The notes under the pieces are model-generated. The model was not told where the DNA came from, searched no databases, and saw nothing but the letters and a program-made list of their open reading frames with translations. 13,770 nucleotides of DNA from Bacteroides sp. (GTDB lineage Bacteria; Bacteroidota; Bacteroidia; Bacteroidales; SM23-62): assembly GCA_030592145.1 (NCBI GenBank), contig JAUVKJ010000013.1, forward strand, positions 1 to 13,770, read 5' to 3'. Both the position numbers and the translations under genes were made by a program. Below, piece by piece: positions 5,977 through 11,890 of this stretch (within the stretch, counting starts at the first letter, position 1; each line of letters opens with the position of its first letter).

Positions 5977-6531
5977 ATGACCGCAGAAGAAAGCAGATAT
6001 ATTGAGGATGTAACAAACCAGGAACAGGGCAGGCTCCTGAATTATATCCGGCAGCGTGTCCGCAACCGGGAGGATGCCGAAGACATCCTGCAGGAGGTTC
6101 TATACCAGTTCCTGAGAGGATTCAGCGACATCCGTTCCACGGAAAGGACTACTTCCTGGCTGTTCACCGTTGCCCGCAACAAGATCACGGATTATTTCAG
6201 GAAAAAGAAACCGGAACCCTTGTCCGACAGGCAGGTAATGAGCAGGGAAGAGGATGGTGCGCCCCTTATGCTTGAGGATATACTGCCGGCTCTGACGAGG
6301 GACCCGGAAGACGAGATGATGCGCGAATGGATATGGAATGCCATTGACCGGGCGCTTGATGAAATGCCCGGGGACCAAAGGGATGTTTTTATCTGGAACG
6401 AGTTTGAAGACAAGAGCTTCAGGGAGATCTCCGGCATGACGGGTGAAGGTATCAACACACTTCTGTCAAGAAAACGTTACGCCATCCTGTTCCTCAGGGT
6501 AAAGTTAAGAGAATTGTATAATCAACTTTAA
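5977..6531 (+). CDS. ECF-type RNA polymerase sigma factor
   Basis: A 184-residue sigma-70 family factor of the extracytoplasmic-function type: it has region 2 and region 4 only. Region 2 (about 15-80) includes REDAEDILQEVLYQF and the promoter-melting part TSWLFTVARNKITDYFRKK. A linker of about 45 acidic residues is followed by region 4 (about 122-182), with the DEMPGDQRDVF motif and the helix-turn-helix SFREISGMTGEGINTLLSRKRYA. It would direct RNA polymerase to a small regulon, probably for envelope or stress response. The ATG at 5977 lies 13 nt after a purine-rich AAAGAGG (5957-5963). The stop lies 11 bp before a small membrane protein, and no classical zinc-finger anti-sigma gene follows. 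Family assignment is firm; regulon and signal unknown. Confidence 0.93.
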   Translation: MTAEESRYIEDVTNQEQGRLLNYIRQRVRNREDAEDILQEVLYQFLRGFSDIRSTERTTSWLFTVARNKITDYFRKKKPEPLSDRQVMSREEDGAPLMLEDILPALTRDPEDEMMREWIWNAIDRALDEMPGDQRDVFIWNEFEDKSFREISGMTGEGINTLLSRKRYAILFLRVKLRELYNQL

Positions 6532-6542
6532 AATTATAAGTC

Positions 6543-6887
6543 ATGAAAGCAAGAGGAGTATTTTATTTTGGGAAATTTGTTGTGATGGGCATCGCCTTCC
6601 TGGCCCTGTTCACCTATGTTGTAATGTTGTTATGGAACTGGCTGGTACCGGAATTGTTCAGCGGACCGGTTCTGGATTACTGGCAGACCCTCGGAATCCT
6701 GATCCTTTCAAAGATCCTGTTCACCGGACTGGGACACCACAGCAAAGATGGTCCCCCCTGGAAAGACAGGTCCTGGAGGCATGATAACCTGAAGTCTCAC
6801 TGGAGAAAGAAATTTGAAGAGAAGATGAATGGCAAGCCAGCCGCTGAGGGTAGTCAAGAAGATCCGTTAAAAACAGAGAACGATTAA
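6543..6887 (+). CDS. Small two-helix membrane protein, partner of ECF sigma factor
   Basis: A 114-residue membrane protein. Two hydrophobic segments are visible, about 10-32 and 45-62, separated by a short WNWLVPELFSGPV loop. A hydrophilic charged tail (63-114) follows, rich in His, Trp, Lys and Glu (GLGHHSKDGPPWKDRSW and then HWRKKFEEK). From memory, similar short proteins with a LWNWLVPxLF-type loop and a YWQxLGLLxLSxILF-type second helix occur beside ECF sigma genes in Bacteroidota; I know no established function. The 11-bp spacing implies co-transcription with the sigma gene. Being membrane-bound with a charged, presumably cytoplasmic tail, it could hold or sense for the sigma factor, but no known anti-sigma fold is visible. 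The two-His, Trp-rich tail could bind metal; that is speculation. Confidence 0.75.
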   Translation: MKARGVFYFGKFVVMGIAFLALFTYVVMLLWNWLVPELFSGPVLDYWQTLGILILSKILFTGLGHHSKDGPPWKDRSWRHDNLKSHWRKKFEEKMNGKPAAEGSQEDPLKTEND

Positions 6888-6902
6888 TCCCGCAAATGTT
6901 GA

Positions 6903-6940
6903 CCACCTGGGCAGGACCATGTCCGGAAGGGGGCAGGTGG
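6903..6940. terminator. Inverted repeat between convergent genes, possible terminator
   Basis: CCACCTG (6903-6909) pairs perfectly with CAGGTGG (6934-6940). Inside the loop, GGAC (6914-6917) pairs with GTCC (6921-6924) around CAT. The structure sits in the 67-bp gap between the converging small membrane protein and the lipoprotein gene, where transcription from both sides should end. There is no T-tract on either side, so an intrinsic terminator role is uncertain. Confidence 0.35.
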
Positions 6941-6954
6941 ACTGAGCTCTATTG

Positions 6955-7485
6955 CTACAGTCCCCCCTGGAGAATAAACCTGATTTCGGCCAGAAAATCA
7001 ATCGTTTGATCAACCTTTGAAGCCAGGGTTCCCTGAGCAGTAAGCGTAAACTTGTCCTCGAGGAGATAGTCCTGCAGATCATCCATGTTAAGATCGAGTT
7101 CGATCATGGTGACCCCCCTGGGTACGGGATCAAGCCATGCCAGCCTGGTACTTCCCAGGGTGGGAGTCTCGATGAACAATTCCACACGGGTTACCGGGTC
7201 AAAGGTGTACCCTTCGGTTAGGATGGTGAACCTGGCATCTGAAACCCTTGCCGATTTCAGTTTTTCCTGGGAAACCCCGTTCGCAGAGAGTACAGAATCG
7301 ATGTTTGCATCGAATTCTTCTGTGGTAAAAACAAGATCACCAACTGTATCGGAAGGGTTAATGGGGAATTTCATGGAGTACCATTCCGAATTAAATTTGA
7401 GCAGGTCACTCAGAAGTTCGTCGCAGCCTGAGGTGAAAATCCCGGCCGCCATGAGAAGCATCAGGAAAATCTTTGAAGTTTTCAT
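6955..7485 (-). CDS. Hypothetical lipoprotein, paralogue A
   Basis: A 176-residue protein with a signal peptide ending in TSGC (Cys21), so a predicted outer-envelope lipoprotein. I do not recognise a named domain. The mature part has alternating hydrophobic strands and looks beta-rich, with a Ser/Thr/Asp-rich middle. It is a paralogue of the gene just upstream on the same strand: both share AWxDPVP (116-122 here), an acidic LDL segment, and the nearly identical EDKFTLTAQG (143-152) near the C-terminus. The upstream paralogue ends 19 bp before this start, so the two form an operon in the order B then A. The pair converges on the ECF sigma operon. Whether the sigma factor controls them cannot be told from sequence. 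Confidence 0.82.
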   Translation of the reverse strand: MKTSKIFLMLLMAAGIFTSGCDELLSDLLKFNSEWYSMKFPINPSDTVGDLVFTTEEFDANIDSVLSANGVSQEKLKSARVSDARFTILTEGYTFDPVTRVELFIETPTLGSTRLAWLDPVPRGVTMIELDLNMDDLQDYLLEDKFTLTAQGTLASKVDQTIDFLAEIRFILQGGL

Positions 7486-7504: not shown

Positions 7505-8047
7505 TTACTGATTGATCTGGAATTTTACTTTTGCATGTAACTTTACATTTTCATATACTCTTTCCCTGAGGTAGCCCTGTGCTGTCAGGATAAATTTGTC
7601 TTCATTGAAATATGGCAGGATATTTTCCTCCGTAAGATCAAGGGTAACGGTGGACTGGTCAGCCGGAACAGGATCAGACCATGCTATTTTGGTCTCCCCC
7701 AGGGAATCCGTATAAACCGTCAATTCGAGAAATTTCAGAATGTCAAAGTCCGCATGGGGCTCTGCTTCCAGCAGGCTTACCTGTGCTTCCTTAAGGATAA
7801 CAGCCTCCACCTGGATACCGGTAAGCCCTGCCTTGCTCAAAATGTCGTTCATGTCACTTGAGAAGAGTTCTTCGGCAAAGATATGGAATCCGCTCCGGTC
7901 GGTCACCTGTACTGTAAAATCCATCTCGTAATAACCTGTGTCTATGGAAGGGTGTTGCTCTTCAGAGTGATCCTCACATGAGAGGATAAATCCCGATGCC
8001 AGCATAAATATTAGGGACTTCAAAATATGTTTCCTTTTAATCGGCAT
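7505..8047 (-). CDS. Hypothetical lipoprotein, paralogue B
   Basis: A 180-residue predicted lipoprotein, signal peptide ending in LSC (Cys24) and followed by an acidic, His-containing tether (EDHSEEQH). It is the first gene of a two-gene - strand operon. It shares with its downstream paralogue the AWSDPVP motif (122-128), a TVTLDL strand and EDKFILTAQG (149-158), with the same length and order of elements, so the two arose by tandem duplication. The N-terminal halves have diverged more than the C-terminal halves. No enzymatic motif is visible; a beta-sandwich binding or structural role is a guess. It is divergently arranged with the large Tyr/Gly-rich secreted protein across 210 bp, which allows shared control. 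Confidence 0.82.
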   Translation of the reverse strand: MPIKRKHILKSLIFMLASGFILSCEDHSEEQHPSIDTGYYEMDFTVQVTDRSGFHIFAEELFSSDMNDILSKAGLTGIQVEAVILKEAQVSLLEAEPHADFDILKFLELTVYTDSLGETKIAWSDPVPADQSTVTLDLTEENILPYFNEDKFILTAQGYLRERVYENVKLHAKVKFQINQ

Positions 8048-8257: not shown

Positions 8258-10627
8258 ATGAAAACACTTAAAGCAATCTCAATATTTATCTGGATCCTGG
8301 CCGTAGCCGCAGCAAAAACTGCTGTTCCCGACAAGCAGGAACCGGAATGGCCGAAAAAAGTGGAAAAGGAATCGTTCCAGATCTCGATCTACCAGCCGCA
8401 GATAAACTCGCTGGAAGGAGATATTCTTGATGCGAGGGCGGCAATCTCTGTTAAGAAAAAAGGTGAGAGGTTGGTATTCGGTGCCATGTGGTTTACAAGC
8501 CGGCTGGTTACCGATTTTGACACCCGGCTTGTCAACCTTACGGATGTTAATATCGAGTCGGTAAAAATTCCGGATGCCGGCGAAGCGGAGGAATCTGCAA
8601 TGATCAGGCTGCTGGAAACTGAAATTCCGGAAATGGACATGACATTCTCACTCGACCGGCTGCTAACCAGCCTGGAGATGGTTGAAAAATCCAATGTATT
8701 ATCAGAGCAGTTCAACCATGCCCCGCCAAAGATCTATTTCGAGGACGAAGCGGCTGTGCTGGTCCTGATCGACGGGGAGCCCATCCTGGAGGATATTGAG
8801 GATACAAAGATCCAGTATGTTGCCAATACTCCGTATTTTATCCTATACAATAAGGCGGACAGATTCTTTTACCTGAAAGGAGGTGACTGGTGGTACAGGG
8901 CCGGCAGGGTAGAGGATACCTGGCGGAAAATAGATAATCCTCCCAACTCAATTCTCCAGATCACACCGACGGAGGATATACCGGAGACAGACGTTGACTC
9001 CATTGCACGCACGCTGGATTATCCGCCGAAGTTAATTCTCAGCAAGGTACCGGCCGAGCTTATCATCACAGACGGTGAACCGGATTTTGCCGCCCTTGAA
9101 GGCACCGATCTTCTATATGTGAGAAATACGGAAAGCGAGATACTGATGGATATCAATTCCCAGGGATATTATGTACTTATAGCCGGCCGGTGGTACAGGT
9201 CAAAATCACTGGATTCGGAAGACTGGGCATTTGTAAATCCGGATGATCTTCCTGAAGGTTTTGCCAGCATTAACACCGATTCGGAGATGGGAAGTGTACG
9301 ATCATCCGTGCCCAATACCCGGGAAGCAAAAGAAGCCATGCTGGAGAACGAGATTCCCCAGACCGCTGAAATCGATCGTAAAAAAGCAAGCGTTGAAGTT
9401 GTTTATGACGGGAATCCCGAGTTTGAAAGGATGCAGGGCACGGAGATGGCTTATGCGGTAAATACGGATAAGTCAGTTCTTTTCATCGATAACCGGTATT
9501 ATTGTGTGGACAATGCAGTATGGTTTGTGTCAGATCATGCCACGGGTCCCTGGCAAGTCTGCGTTTCGGTCCCCAACGACGTACAGTCAATTCCCCCGGA
9601 ATACCCCGTATACAATGTAAAGTATGTATATATTTACGACTATACACCCGATGTTGTATACGTTGGATACACCCCCGGCTATGTATATTCCTATTCCTAT
9701 CACGGCACCATTGTTTATGGGACAGGATATTATTACAGACCCTGGTACAGGACCTATTACTACCCGCGCCCGGTGACCTACGGTTACGGGGTCCATTACA
9801 ATCCGTATACCGGCTGGGGATTCTCTGTCGGCATCAGCTACGGATGGGTCGGGTACAGCTATTACAGGAGACCGTACTATTATACCTCATATTGGGGGCC
9901 CACAGGATACCGCTACGGATACAGGCATGGTTATTATCATGGTTACAATCGCGGGCATTACAGAGGCTATTACCATGGTTACAGTTATGGTGTGTACGCG
10001 AGCAGCCGCTCCGGGTACAGGGCAGGTTACTATGACGGGCGTCGTCATTATTCCCAAAGCCATAATGTTTATAAGAGCAGGTCCACCGGCGTTGTTCATA
10101 CTGGCACAAGGGCAACCACCTATGGTTCCCGGACAGGGTCGGGTGCCACACGCTCCTCCTACAGTAAACCCGCTACAAGCAGTCGTAAGAATAATGTATA
10201 CACTGATCGGAACGGTAATGTATACAGGCAAAAAGGAGATAACTGGCAAAGCAGGGAAGAAGGATCCTGGAAGAAAAGCGATATGCCTGATCGCAGCCGA
10301 TCGTCCGCCACGACTTCTTCAACTGCCCGGTCCGCTAAATCGACAACCGGAACGGCCACTGAACGAAGCAGCCAGACCCGGAGATCAAGCCAGGGAGACA
10401 CCTATAAAAGCAATCAGGGACGCAGTTCATCAGGCAGAACCGGGCAGGATCTGAAAAGGGAATCCCAGGCACGGAGCCAGGGCAGCCAGCGCAGCTACAA
10501 CTACCAGCAGAGCCGGCAGCAGCCTGCAAAGACTTCTACTTCACGCTCACGGAGCAGCAGTTCATCGAAGAGCACGGGTAGCAGCCGTGCGACACAGCCG
10601 TCAAGTTCAAAGGCGCGCAAAAGATAA
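8258..10627 (+). CDS. Secreted three-module, Tyr/Gly-rich protein with basic Ser/Arg tail
   Basis: A 789-residue exported protein (signal peptide about 1-19). After an N-domain (about 35-155) it carries three copies of a 75-80 residue beta-rich module starting near 156, 256 and 375. Each has the pattern VxDGxP, then GTxxxYxxNT, then an aromatic YYxxxxxxWY/WF segment (WWYRAG, RWYRSK, VWFVSD), and ends with W and a proline turn. From about 449 (YPVYNVKYVYIYDYTPDVVY) to about 610 the sequence is extremely rich in Tyr, Gly and Arg/His. The final 180 residues are low-complexity Ser/Arg/Thr/Gln, strongly basic. From memory, the VYVGYTPGY segment is shared with uncharacterised bacterial proteins sometimes labelled carbohydrate-binding family V/XII; I do not trust that as function. 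A surface or matrix structural role binding polyanions is possible. A strong terminator follows. Confidence 0.8.
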   Translation: MKTLKAISIFIWILAVAAAKTAVPDKQEPEWPKKVEKESFQISIYQPQINSLEGDILDARAAISVKKKGERLVFGAMWFTSRLVTDFDTRLVNLTDVNIESVKIPDAGEAEESAMIRLLETEIPEMDMTFSLDRLLTSLEMVEKSNVLSEQFNHAPPKIYFEDEAAVLVLIDGEPILEDIEDTKIQYVANTPYFILYNKADRFFYLKGGDWWYRAGRVEDTWRKIDNPPNSILQITPTEDIPETDVDSIARTLDYPPKLILSKVPAELIITDGEPDFAALEGTDLLYVRNTESEILMDINSQGYYVLIAGRWYRSKSLDSEDWAFVNPDDLPEGFASINTDSEMGSVRSSVPNTREAKEAMLENEIPQTAEIDRKKASVEVVYDGNPEFERMQGTEMAYAVNTDKSVLFIDNRYYCVDNAVWFVSDHATGPWQVCVSVPNDVQSIPPEYPVYNVKYVYIYDYTPDVVYVGYTPGYVYSYSYHGTIVYGTGYYYRPWYRTYYYPRPVTYGYGVHYNPYTGWGFSVGISYGWVGYSYYRRPYYYTSYWGPTGYRYGYRHGYYHGYNRGHYRGYYHGYSYGVYASSRSGYRAGYYDGRRHYSQSHNVYKSRSTGVVHTGTRATTYGSRTGSGATRSSYSKPATSSRKNNVYTDRNGNVYRQKGDNWQSREEGSWKKSDMPDRSRSSATTSSTARSAKSTTGTATERSSQTRRSSQGDTYKSNQGRSSSGRTGQDLKRESQARSQGSQRSYNYQQSRQQPAKTSTSRSRSSSSSKSTGSSRATQPSSSKARKR
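9602..10085 (+). repeat. Tyr/Gly codon-rich low-complexity stretch
   Basis: Within the 789-residue protein this stretch is dominated by TAT/TAC and GGN codons with short irregular repeats such as YRGYYHGYSYG and YRYGYRHGYYHGYNRG. The repetition is of codon type rather than exact DNA units. It opens long spurious reading frames on both strands, which are composition artefacts. Confidence 0.7.
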
Positions 10628-10654: not shown

Positions 10655-11890
10655 CTAAGAGAACAGGCTCAGTTGTTTTTCTCGGGGCTCTGTTCTCTTT
10701 TTATGTTTCTTTCTGCCGGGAATACCGGCCGTTGTCATCCCACCGAATTCAGGAGATTCCTGGTTCTCTTTGTCAATGTACTTTTGATAATGTTCCATAT
10801 TGGGTATAAAGTTTTTTTCAAGTTTATAAAGGAGTGGCACCAGTCCCCTGACGGCCCTCTGCCTGTCATAGATGCCCAGTTTTGCGCGGTCAATCGCATG
10901 TCTCAGGTACTGTAAAGTCTCGTCATAGACAGAGGTTTGTACCGGAAAAGGCTTCCCGTCCTTTCCGCCATGGGCAAATGAAAACCTGGCCGGATCGTTG
11001 AACCTGGTAGGTGTGCCGTGAATGACCTCGCTGACCAGAGTGAGGGACCTTAGTGTTTTGGGACCGAGTCCGTCAAGCAGAAGCAGGTCTTCAAATTCTT
11101 TGAATTTGCGTTCGTAGGCAATGGCCAGGACGGCCCCCAGCCTTTTCAGGTCCACATCACGGTAGCTTACATCATGATGTGTTGGCAGGACCATAAGCCG
11201 GATTTCGTCTATCATTTTATACGGCGATTCATGAGTTATCTGCAAAATGCCTTTCCTTGTTTCAGCAGCCTCAGGGTCTGTGAGGTTCAGTATCTTTCCC
11301 AGGTTTTCCCCGACAATGGAAGTATGCGGTTCCTCCACAAAGGATCTGAGGCTGGCGGAATGCCAGTGGTACCTTCGGGCCATGCCGATGGGGCCATTCA
11401 TTCCCTGCTGAATGACGGACCAGTTTCCGGAATCCGAAACAATAAATGTATGCAGATAGATCTGAAAACCATCCTGAATGGCCGTGTTATCGATCTTGGC
11501 CGAAAGCCTGCTGCAACGGACCAGGGATTCCCCGTCGAGCCCTGTTCGCCCGGAGTACTGAAGCAGTTCATCCGGTGTTCTGAGGGAGTAGGATCCACGC
11601 CCGCCGCATACATATAATCCAAGCTCATGCGAAACAGGATTGATGGCCTTTTTCAGGGCAGCCATTACCGAAGTTGTAATGCCTGAAGAATGCCAGTCCA
11701 TCCCGAGTACGGATCCCAGGGCCTGGAACCAGTACGGATCACTTATCCTTCTCAGGAACTCTTCTTTACCATAGTCTTCAACAATGGCTTCGGTGATCGC
11801 CCTGGCCATTTTTGCCATACGCTCGTACAACCATGCCGGCACCTTACCAGGATGCAGGGGCAGGTCTGCCTGTCCGCTTCGTTTCATCAT
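10655..11890 (-). CDS. DUF763 protein with HhH-like motif and C-terminal sliding-clamp motif
   Basis: A 411-residue cytoplasmic protein of the uncharacterised DUF763 family (COG1415 by memory). Family hallmarks: N-terminal MKRSGQADLPLHPGKVPAWL, SDPYWFQALGSVLGMDWHSSG (D65, H67), QDGFQIYLHTF (D140, H147), YHWHSASL (H175, H177) and PTHHD (H239, H240). Repeated conserved His/Asp suggests metal-dependent chemistry, possibly a nuclease, but none is proven to my knowledge. LLDGLGPKTLRSL (273-283) resembles a helix-hairpin-helix DNA-binding motif. The C-terminus is a basic linker followed by QLSLF (406-410), the classical bacterial beta-clamp-binding pentapeptide, so the protein probably works in DNA replication or repair. 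ATG codons at 11890 and 11887 are adjacent; MKRSG from the second matches the family start better. No clear ribosome binding site. Confidence 0.85.
   Translation of the reverse strand: MMKRSGQADLPLHPGKVPAWLYERMAKMARAITEAIVEDYGKEEFLRRISDPYWFQALGSVLGMDWHSSGITTSVMAALKKAINPVSHELGLYVCGGRGSYSLRTPDELLQYSGRTGLDGESLVRCSRLSAKIDNTAIQDGFQIYLHTFIVSDSGNWSVIQQGMNGPIGMARRYHWHSASLRSFVEEPHTSIVGENLGKILNLTDPEAAETRKGILQITHESPYKMIDEIRLMVLPTHHDVSYRDVDLKRLGAVLAIAYERKFKEFEDLLLLDGLGPKTLRSLTLVSEVIHGTPTRFNDPARFSFAHGGKDGKPFPVQTSVYDETLQYLRHAIDRAKLGIYDRQRAVRGLVPLLYKLEKNFIPNMEHYQKYIDKENQESPEFGGMTTAGIPGRKKHKKRTEPREKQLSLFS
10657..10702 (+). terminator. Intrinsic terminator of the 789-residue protein gene
   Basis: AAGAGAACAG (10657-10666) and CTGTTCTCTT (10690-10699) form a perfect 10-bp stem around a 23-nt loop, ending in a run of five T (10698-10702). 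It is a good + strand terminator 29 bp after the TAA. No T-run follows it on the opposite strand. The whole structure overlaps the last codons and stop of the convergent DUF763 gene. Confidence 0.8.

Follow-up and report, generated by a model that had tools for sequence, protein, structure and literature searches.

Sliding-clamp motifs in DUF763 proteins of Bacteroidota and haloarchaea suggest a clamp-recruited role in DNA repair

Introduction

Replication and repair both depend centrally on the clients of the sliding clamp. The stretch of DNA analysed here (the window, 13,770 nucleotides) encodes a protein of the Pfam family DUF763 that ends in what looks like a client motif of the bacterial sliding clamp. 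At least 7,998 database proteins score as relatives of DUF763, which we take to be the family labelled COG1415. A full-text literature search, with preprints and most subscription papers outside its coverage, found no function for it. The available part of a 2005 paper (PMC554113) lists DUF763 in archaea, rhizobia and xanthomonads, with Sulfolobus, Pyrococcus, Thermoplasma and Xanthomonas among the carriers, and gives no function there. The accession that it gives for the P. abyssi member is absent from the main text, as far as accessible, of a study of the Pyrococcus abyssi PCNA network (PMC3820547).

Results

The open reading frame at 10655..11890 on the minus strand of the window encodes 411 residues ending in EKQLSLFS. 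Against Pfam, with E-values up to 1 admitted, the full-length protein matched DUF763 (PF05559) alone, over residues 6-317 (10940..11875, minus strand), with an E-value of 2.3e-133, a score of 444.8 bits against the curated cut-off of 35.5, and profile positions 1-319 of 319 covered. The structure model (pLDDT 84) is mostly confident over this core, and residues 397-411 are disordered in it. As the original prediction had it, the protein closes on a clamp-type QLSLF (residues 406-410; 10661..10675, minus strand) behind a basic linker (residues 384-405; 10676..10741, minus strand), which is variable and differs in both length and sequence among homologues.

The tail is strongly conserved in Bacteroidota. 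The pattern Q[LM]x[LM]F, beginning within the last 19 residues, was found in 231 of 235 Bacteroidota-type homologues, a set of database matches in which the entries with an organism name are nearly all Bacteroidota; the four exceptions end in QLSLDLSFARL (a 341-residue entry), QSRLLN, QLRLPW and QLKLW. It was also present at 94 of the 95 loci taken from genomes, whose sequences may overlap with the homologue set, the sole exception being QLKLWDDL. When sequences were clustered on the protein body alone, leaving out the last 40 residues, 63 of the 64 non-redundant Bacteroidota-type sequences carried Q[LMI]x[LMI][FWL] in their last 20 residues; shuffling of the tails gave 0.12 on average and 2 at most. 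In the 63 motif-anchored rows, positions 1, 2, 4 and 5 of the motif had an entropy of 0-0.2 bits, the third position 2.4 bits and the 25 positions preceding the motif 2.7-3.8 bits, although the low motif values arise partly because the rows were anchored on the motif, by which one row of 64 was dropped. Conservation of the tail is far above chance, and the tail is real.

At the DNA level, two patterns for a C-terminal QLxLF occurred at 8 + 8 places in the genome of the window (a 2.0 Mb draft, 72.8% complete), compared with 8 and 14 for the reversed controls, in a count that covered C-terminal QLxLF patterns only; the DNA pattern itself is thus not enriched. Among these 16 places, only the DUF763 gene ends a frame of more than 148 residues. 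A DnaN was found in the same genome.

In the available part of PMC12309361, the bacterial clamp-binding consensus is given as QL[S/D]LF, more generally QxxLF; the C-terminal QLSLF of PolC bound B. subtilis DnaN with a KD of 3.8 uM, and QLSLPL is a strong E. coli clamp peptide. As a control we inspected 30 Y-family polymerase ORFs (30 of 39 matches) from 15 DUF763-bearing Bacteroidota genomes. Q[LM]x[LMI][FW] was present within the last 90 residues of seven, in six of them at most two residues from the C-terminus (QLRLF, QLSLFD, QLELF, QLSMF, QLSLFYF and QLSLF), and each of the remaining 23 had a variant (QLKIPF, for example), an internal form (QISLF, for example) or no motif at all. In one genome (G280), QLSLFD ends both a polymerase (L132) and DUF763 (L043). 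The QLSLF tail corresponds to a bacterial sliding-clamp client motif at a disordered, conserved site, and DnaN binding is predicted.

The archaeal members were sampled as the best 120 relatives of one haloarchaeal DUF763, the named ones being from haloarchaea and nanohaloarchaea. These proteins mostly end shortly past the core, and the C-terminal PIP box that had been anticipated for archaea was rejected, with the two-aromatic pattern found from residue 300 on in 0 of 120. They carry an insert ahead of a conserved [ML]Px[HR]H, and a PIP-like motif was first spotted in this internal loop and then counted there with a single-aromatic pattern. Q..[LIMV]..[FYW] was present in the 60 residues upstream of the [ML]Px[HR]H anchor in 110 of the 112 scored proteins, eight of the 120 having no anchor and being left unscored. 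Examples are QRSLADF, QQTLGDF and QSTLDAF; both exceptions read ETSLADF. After redundancy reduction the count was 37 of 38 against 0.5 in shuffles, the pattern occurring about once per whole protein. The expectation of an archaeal PIP box therefore stands for an internal site in haloarchaea and nanohaloarchaea, not for the C-terminus. In the protein of the window, the corresponding loop lies directly before the His pair 238-239 (11174..11179, minus strand), of which H239 is invariant. The haloarchaeal loop matches the single-aromatic PIP-box form of PCNA clients, and PCNA binding is predicted for it. With a tail in Bacteroidota and an internal PIP-like motif in haloarchaea, the family carries the motif type of the local clamp in two lineages, at different sites.

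Plasmid copies of DUF763 were found in 230 records, 218 of them from Rhizobium, Sinorhizobium or Ensifer. We picked 15 of the 230 for variety, namely 13 alphaproteobacterial plasmid loci and two haloarchaeal ones. None of the 13 alphaproteobacterial loci has the C-terminal tail; the recurrence that was expected of it thus holds in Bacteroidota and fails here, and clamp docking through the tail is not family-wide. In the loop equivalent to the archaeal PIP-like site, 12 of the 13 have Q[LP]xLPHL, and the Devosia locus is without the Q. Position 2 is a leucine in four (QLALP, QLMLP, QLSLP and QLTLP) and a proline in eight. Since the proline forms are non-canonical, this motif is a lead only, despite its likeness to QLSLPL, and is only suggestive of a clamp motif. 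On a Shinella zoogloeoides plasmid (L098, about 6001-7141), DUF763 is split into two frames and unannotated as a gene.

NCBIfam, PADLOC and PHROGs gave no match to the protein of the window. A mobile or viral origin was rejected, since 50,697 phage records contained no match, no match to viral contigs was confirmed, and PHROG and PADLOC were likewise negative, and an anti-phage defence system was set aside, with no PADLOC family matching up to E 1.

Conservation in the core was examined over 146 bacterial and archaeal sequences. Invariant polar residues include D65, H67, S68, S69, D134, D140, Y145, H147, Q161, Q162, R172, R173, Y174, H175, H239, D299, K310 and D311. Most of the histidines and aspartates pointed out in the original prediction are among them (D65, H67, D140, H147, H175 and H239), but H177 in YHWHS varies. 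Four stretches on the minus strand are candidate active-site motifs: DWHSSG (residues 65-70, 11681..11698), residues 140-147 with D140, Y145 and H147 (11450..11473), ARRYHW (residues 171-176, 11363..11380), which may contact DNA instead, and GGKD (residues 308-311, 10958..10969). DWHSSG, ARRYHW and GGKD are invariant throughout.

The helix-hairpin-helix (HhH)-like element predicted earlier lies at residues 265-290 (LLLLDGLGPKTLRSL...; 11021..11098, minus strand), where G274 and G276 are invariant in the same 146 sequences. Cut-out segments matched HHH and HHH_3 with E-values of 0.0016-0.1, but all under the Pfam cut-offs (12.9-18.6 bits against 24 for HHH, and 14.1 against 27 for HHH_3), and the scan of the full-length sequence gave no HHH match (E up to 1). 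Comparison of the structure model gave no clear match to any known fold, nuclease and glycosylase folds included. A nuclease or other enzyme activity would be in keeping with the HhH-like element and the polar residues that are conserved.

For the alphaproteobacterial copies, the flanking stretches explored were 6 or 8 kb long, or shorter where the record ended. Repair genes (AlkB, 3-methyladenine glycosylase, Ku, LigD or UdgX) lie near six of the 13. In Rhodopseudomonas, the last base of the AlkB gene is the first base of DUF763; the Bosea copy adjoins a 3-methyladenine glycosylase, which is followed by two Ku genes and LigD; a 3-methyladenine-type glycosylase adjoins it in Ensifer canadensis. 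LigD is found nearby in Shinella, LigD-like and glycosylase genes in an unannotated Phyllobacterium record, and UdgX with topoisomerase IB in Sinorhizobium meliloti. A clear repair neighbor was absent from the fetched stretches of the other seven loci, four of which have an endonuclease/exonuclease/phosphatase-family gene, and from both haloarchaeal loci.

On four Rhizobium plasmids (L095, L124, L125 and L127), DUF763 sits in a block with endonuclease/exonuclease/phosphatase-family and lysylphosphatidylglycerol-synthase-domain genes, and in three of these a phospholipase gene is also beside it. Boxes resembling GTTC-N7-GTTC, which we take to be the alphaproteobacterial LexA-like consensus, were seen on either strand within about 60 bases upstream of DUF763 in two of the 13 loci (L093 and L122); these are too few to be of use and were set aside.

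No constant gene partner or operon was found in Bacteroidota, where the commonest neighbor cluster occurs in 17 of 80 loci. Two of the 80 have LigD-like genes at most 6 kb from DUF763 (one match being weak), and in one genome (G138) Ku is 5.4 kb away. By eye, a MutM/Nei-type glycosylase look-alike (start MPEGPSI...) was noticed in L013 and six other loci among L002-L081, with a median position some 1.6 kb downstream from where DUF763 starts. In the window itself, a gene for a 789-residue protein (8258-10627, plus strand), whose C-terminal half is Tyr/Gly-rich and Ser/Arg-rich and which has no Pfam match, is tail to tail with DUF763 across a gap of 27 bases. Two adjacent genes at 6955-7485 and 7505-8047 (both minus strand) encode proteins with lipoprotein-like N-termini, apparent tandem paralogues by eye, which share LDPVP.../EDKFTLTAQG stretches; neither has a Pfam match above the cut-off.

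DUF763 also co-occurs with Ku. In a sample of 198 Bacteroidota genomes, DUF763 was present in 11, Ku in 24 and both in nine, that is, Ku in 9 of 11 genomes with DUF763 against 15 of 187 without (Fisher p 6e-8 by genome and 0.0009 by genus, in tests that ignore phylogeny). Within the four families holding nine of the DUF763 positives the figures were 9 of 9 against 6 of 21 (p 0.0007, phylogeny again ignored). Ku was likewise present in 37 of 43 further DUF763-bearing Bacteroidota isolates, with no Ku match in the other six; these isolates are the ones among the 80 loci not marked as metagenome-assembled or uncultured, and their genus mix differs from that of the 198-genome sample. The genome of the window, 72.8% complete, gave no Ku match.

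Catalase, taken as a control for lifestyle, was also enriched phylum-wide (8 of the 11 genomes with DUF763 and 27 of the 187 without it; p 5e-5, phylogeny ignored), so that part of the Ku link is explained by lifestyle; within the four families it reached 8 of 9 against 12 of 21 (p 0.20). One sub-threshold catalase match was excluded from these counts. Co-occurrence with 3-methyladenine glycosylase or with photolyase was uninformative, each being too common (149 of 198 genomes).

Discussion

Taken with the gene context, the results above favor a model where the sliding clamp would bring DUF763 to DNA. The Bacteroidota proteins would use their disordered C-terminal arm for this, its QLxLF end docking in the peptide pocket of DnaN, and in haloarchaea a PIP box on the loop before the conserved His pair would dock on PCNA; judged from the motifs, docking on both sides is very likely. 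That DUF763 has a role in DNA repair, as the original prediction proposed, is quite likely from the clamp motif, the gene context and the Ku link, although this last line is partly confounded by lifestyle. At the clamp, the core, with its HhH-like DNA-contact element and its invariant Asp, His, Arg, Gln and Lys residues, would work on DNA that is damaged or broken; the likeliest role is that of a nuclease- or glycosylase-type enzyme that processes lesions or ends. From these data we infer that the clamp is bound, that the HhH-like element contacts DNA and that the core is catalytic, along with the kind of substrate, the enzyme activity being suggested by the conserved polar residues and the HhH-like element. 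As a whole, DUF763 is probably a clamp-recruited DNA-repair protein with a core of this kind.

One could argue that the C-terminal QLxLF, placed as it is at the very end of the Bacteroidota proteins, has another function there, for instance as a structural cap or as a terminal signal for degradation. We regard this as highly improbable: the exact clamp consensus is kept with its third position free, polymerases in the same genomes share such ends, the tail is disordered in the model, and archaeal members have their PIP-like motif at another site. The same clamp-motif evidence, the tail and the PIP-like loop, would also be explained if clamp binding were real and DUF763 were a non-enzymatic regulator or scaffold bound to the clamp, one that restricts the access of polymerases, for instance, or links end-joining proteins to the clamp. 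That no catalytic fold was recognised in the structure comparison agrees with this; the many polar residues invariant across the divide between bacteria and archaea look more like an active site, however, and we consider a regulator or scaffold rather unlikely.

The protein might also use docking on the clamp or nucleic acid for a different task, such as replication timing or DNA-linked metabolism, the repair link then being a by-product of large, stress-tolerant genomes. The enrichment of catalase, the absence of a constant operon partner and the metabolic neighbors seen in several loci would fit such a role, but within the four families Ku is still associated with DUF763 and catalase is not, and repair genes adjoin some of the alphaproteobacterial copies; the chance that this is the explanation appears very small.

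If DUF763 is indeed a clamp-recruited repair protein, a more far-reaching model is possible, which we put forward tentatively. DUF763 could form a class of DNA-repair enzyme that has so far escaped notice, shared by bacteria and archaea and built on a fold new to the structure databank. The two sides would then have acquired clamp docking independently, through the DnaN tail in the one case and the PCNA loop in the other. In bacteria, the enzyme would stand at the junction of clamp-based repair and Ku/LigD end joining and might, for instance, trim or excise damaged ends ahead of the fill-in and sealing steps. Should the Ku link hold, DUF763 could be the missing processing factor of bacterial end joining, and should the fold be new, it would add an enzyme class, which it has a chance of being. 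The motif pattern offers a cheap and sharp hypothesis with ready point mutants.

Among known systems, Pfam DUF763 (PF05559) itself is matched over its full length with no difference. PolC and the Y-family polymerases have a C-terminal pentapeptide identical or near-identical to the DUF763 tail (for PolC, the available part of PMC12309361), and the rest of these proteins is without sequence kinship to DUF763. Bacterial end joining by Ku and LigD co-occurs with DUF763, sometimes nearby; the proteins are non-homologous to it, and Ku is missing in two of the 11 sample genomes and in six of the 43 isolates.

EndoQ is closer in kind, and Pab0431 of Pyrococcus abyssi is presumably EndoQ. In the accessible main text of PMC3820547, Pab0431 is a PHP protein with a PIP box, recovered by PCNA pull-down. 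EndoQ, a PHP-type endonuclease with a PIP box and stimulation by PCNA, is likewise a family for DNA maintenance, present in archaea and in some bacteria, that was found through a clamp motif, and the PIP motif of the kodakarensis enzyme is needed both for PCNA binding and for PCNA stimulation of the endonuclease (PMC4858679, available part). Its PIP boxes given in the same source, QRSITEFL and QRTLLQYI, resemble the haloarchaeal DUF763 loop QRSLADF. Unlike EndoQ, DUF763 matches no other family in sequence (Pfam, E up to 1) and has no clear fold match, and its archaeal PIP-like motif is internal, not C-terminal. EndoQ is nevertheless the nearest precedent for DUF763 among clamp-recruited genome-maintenance families.
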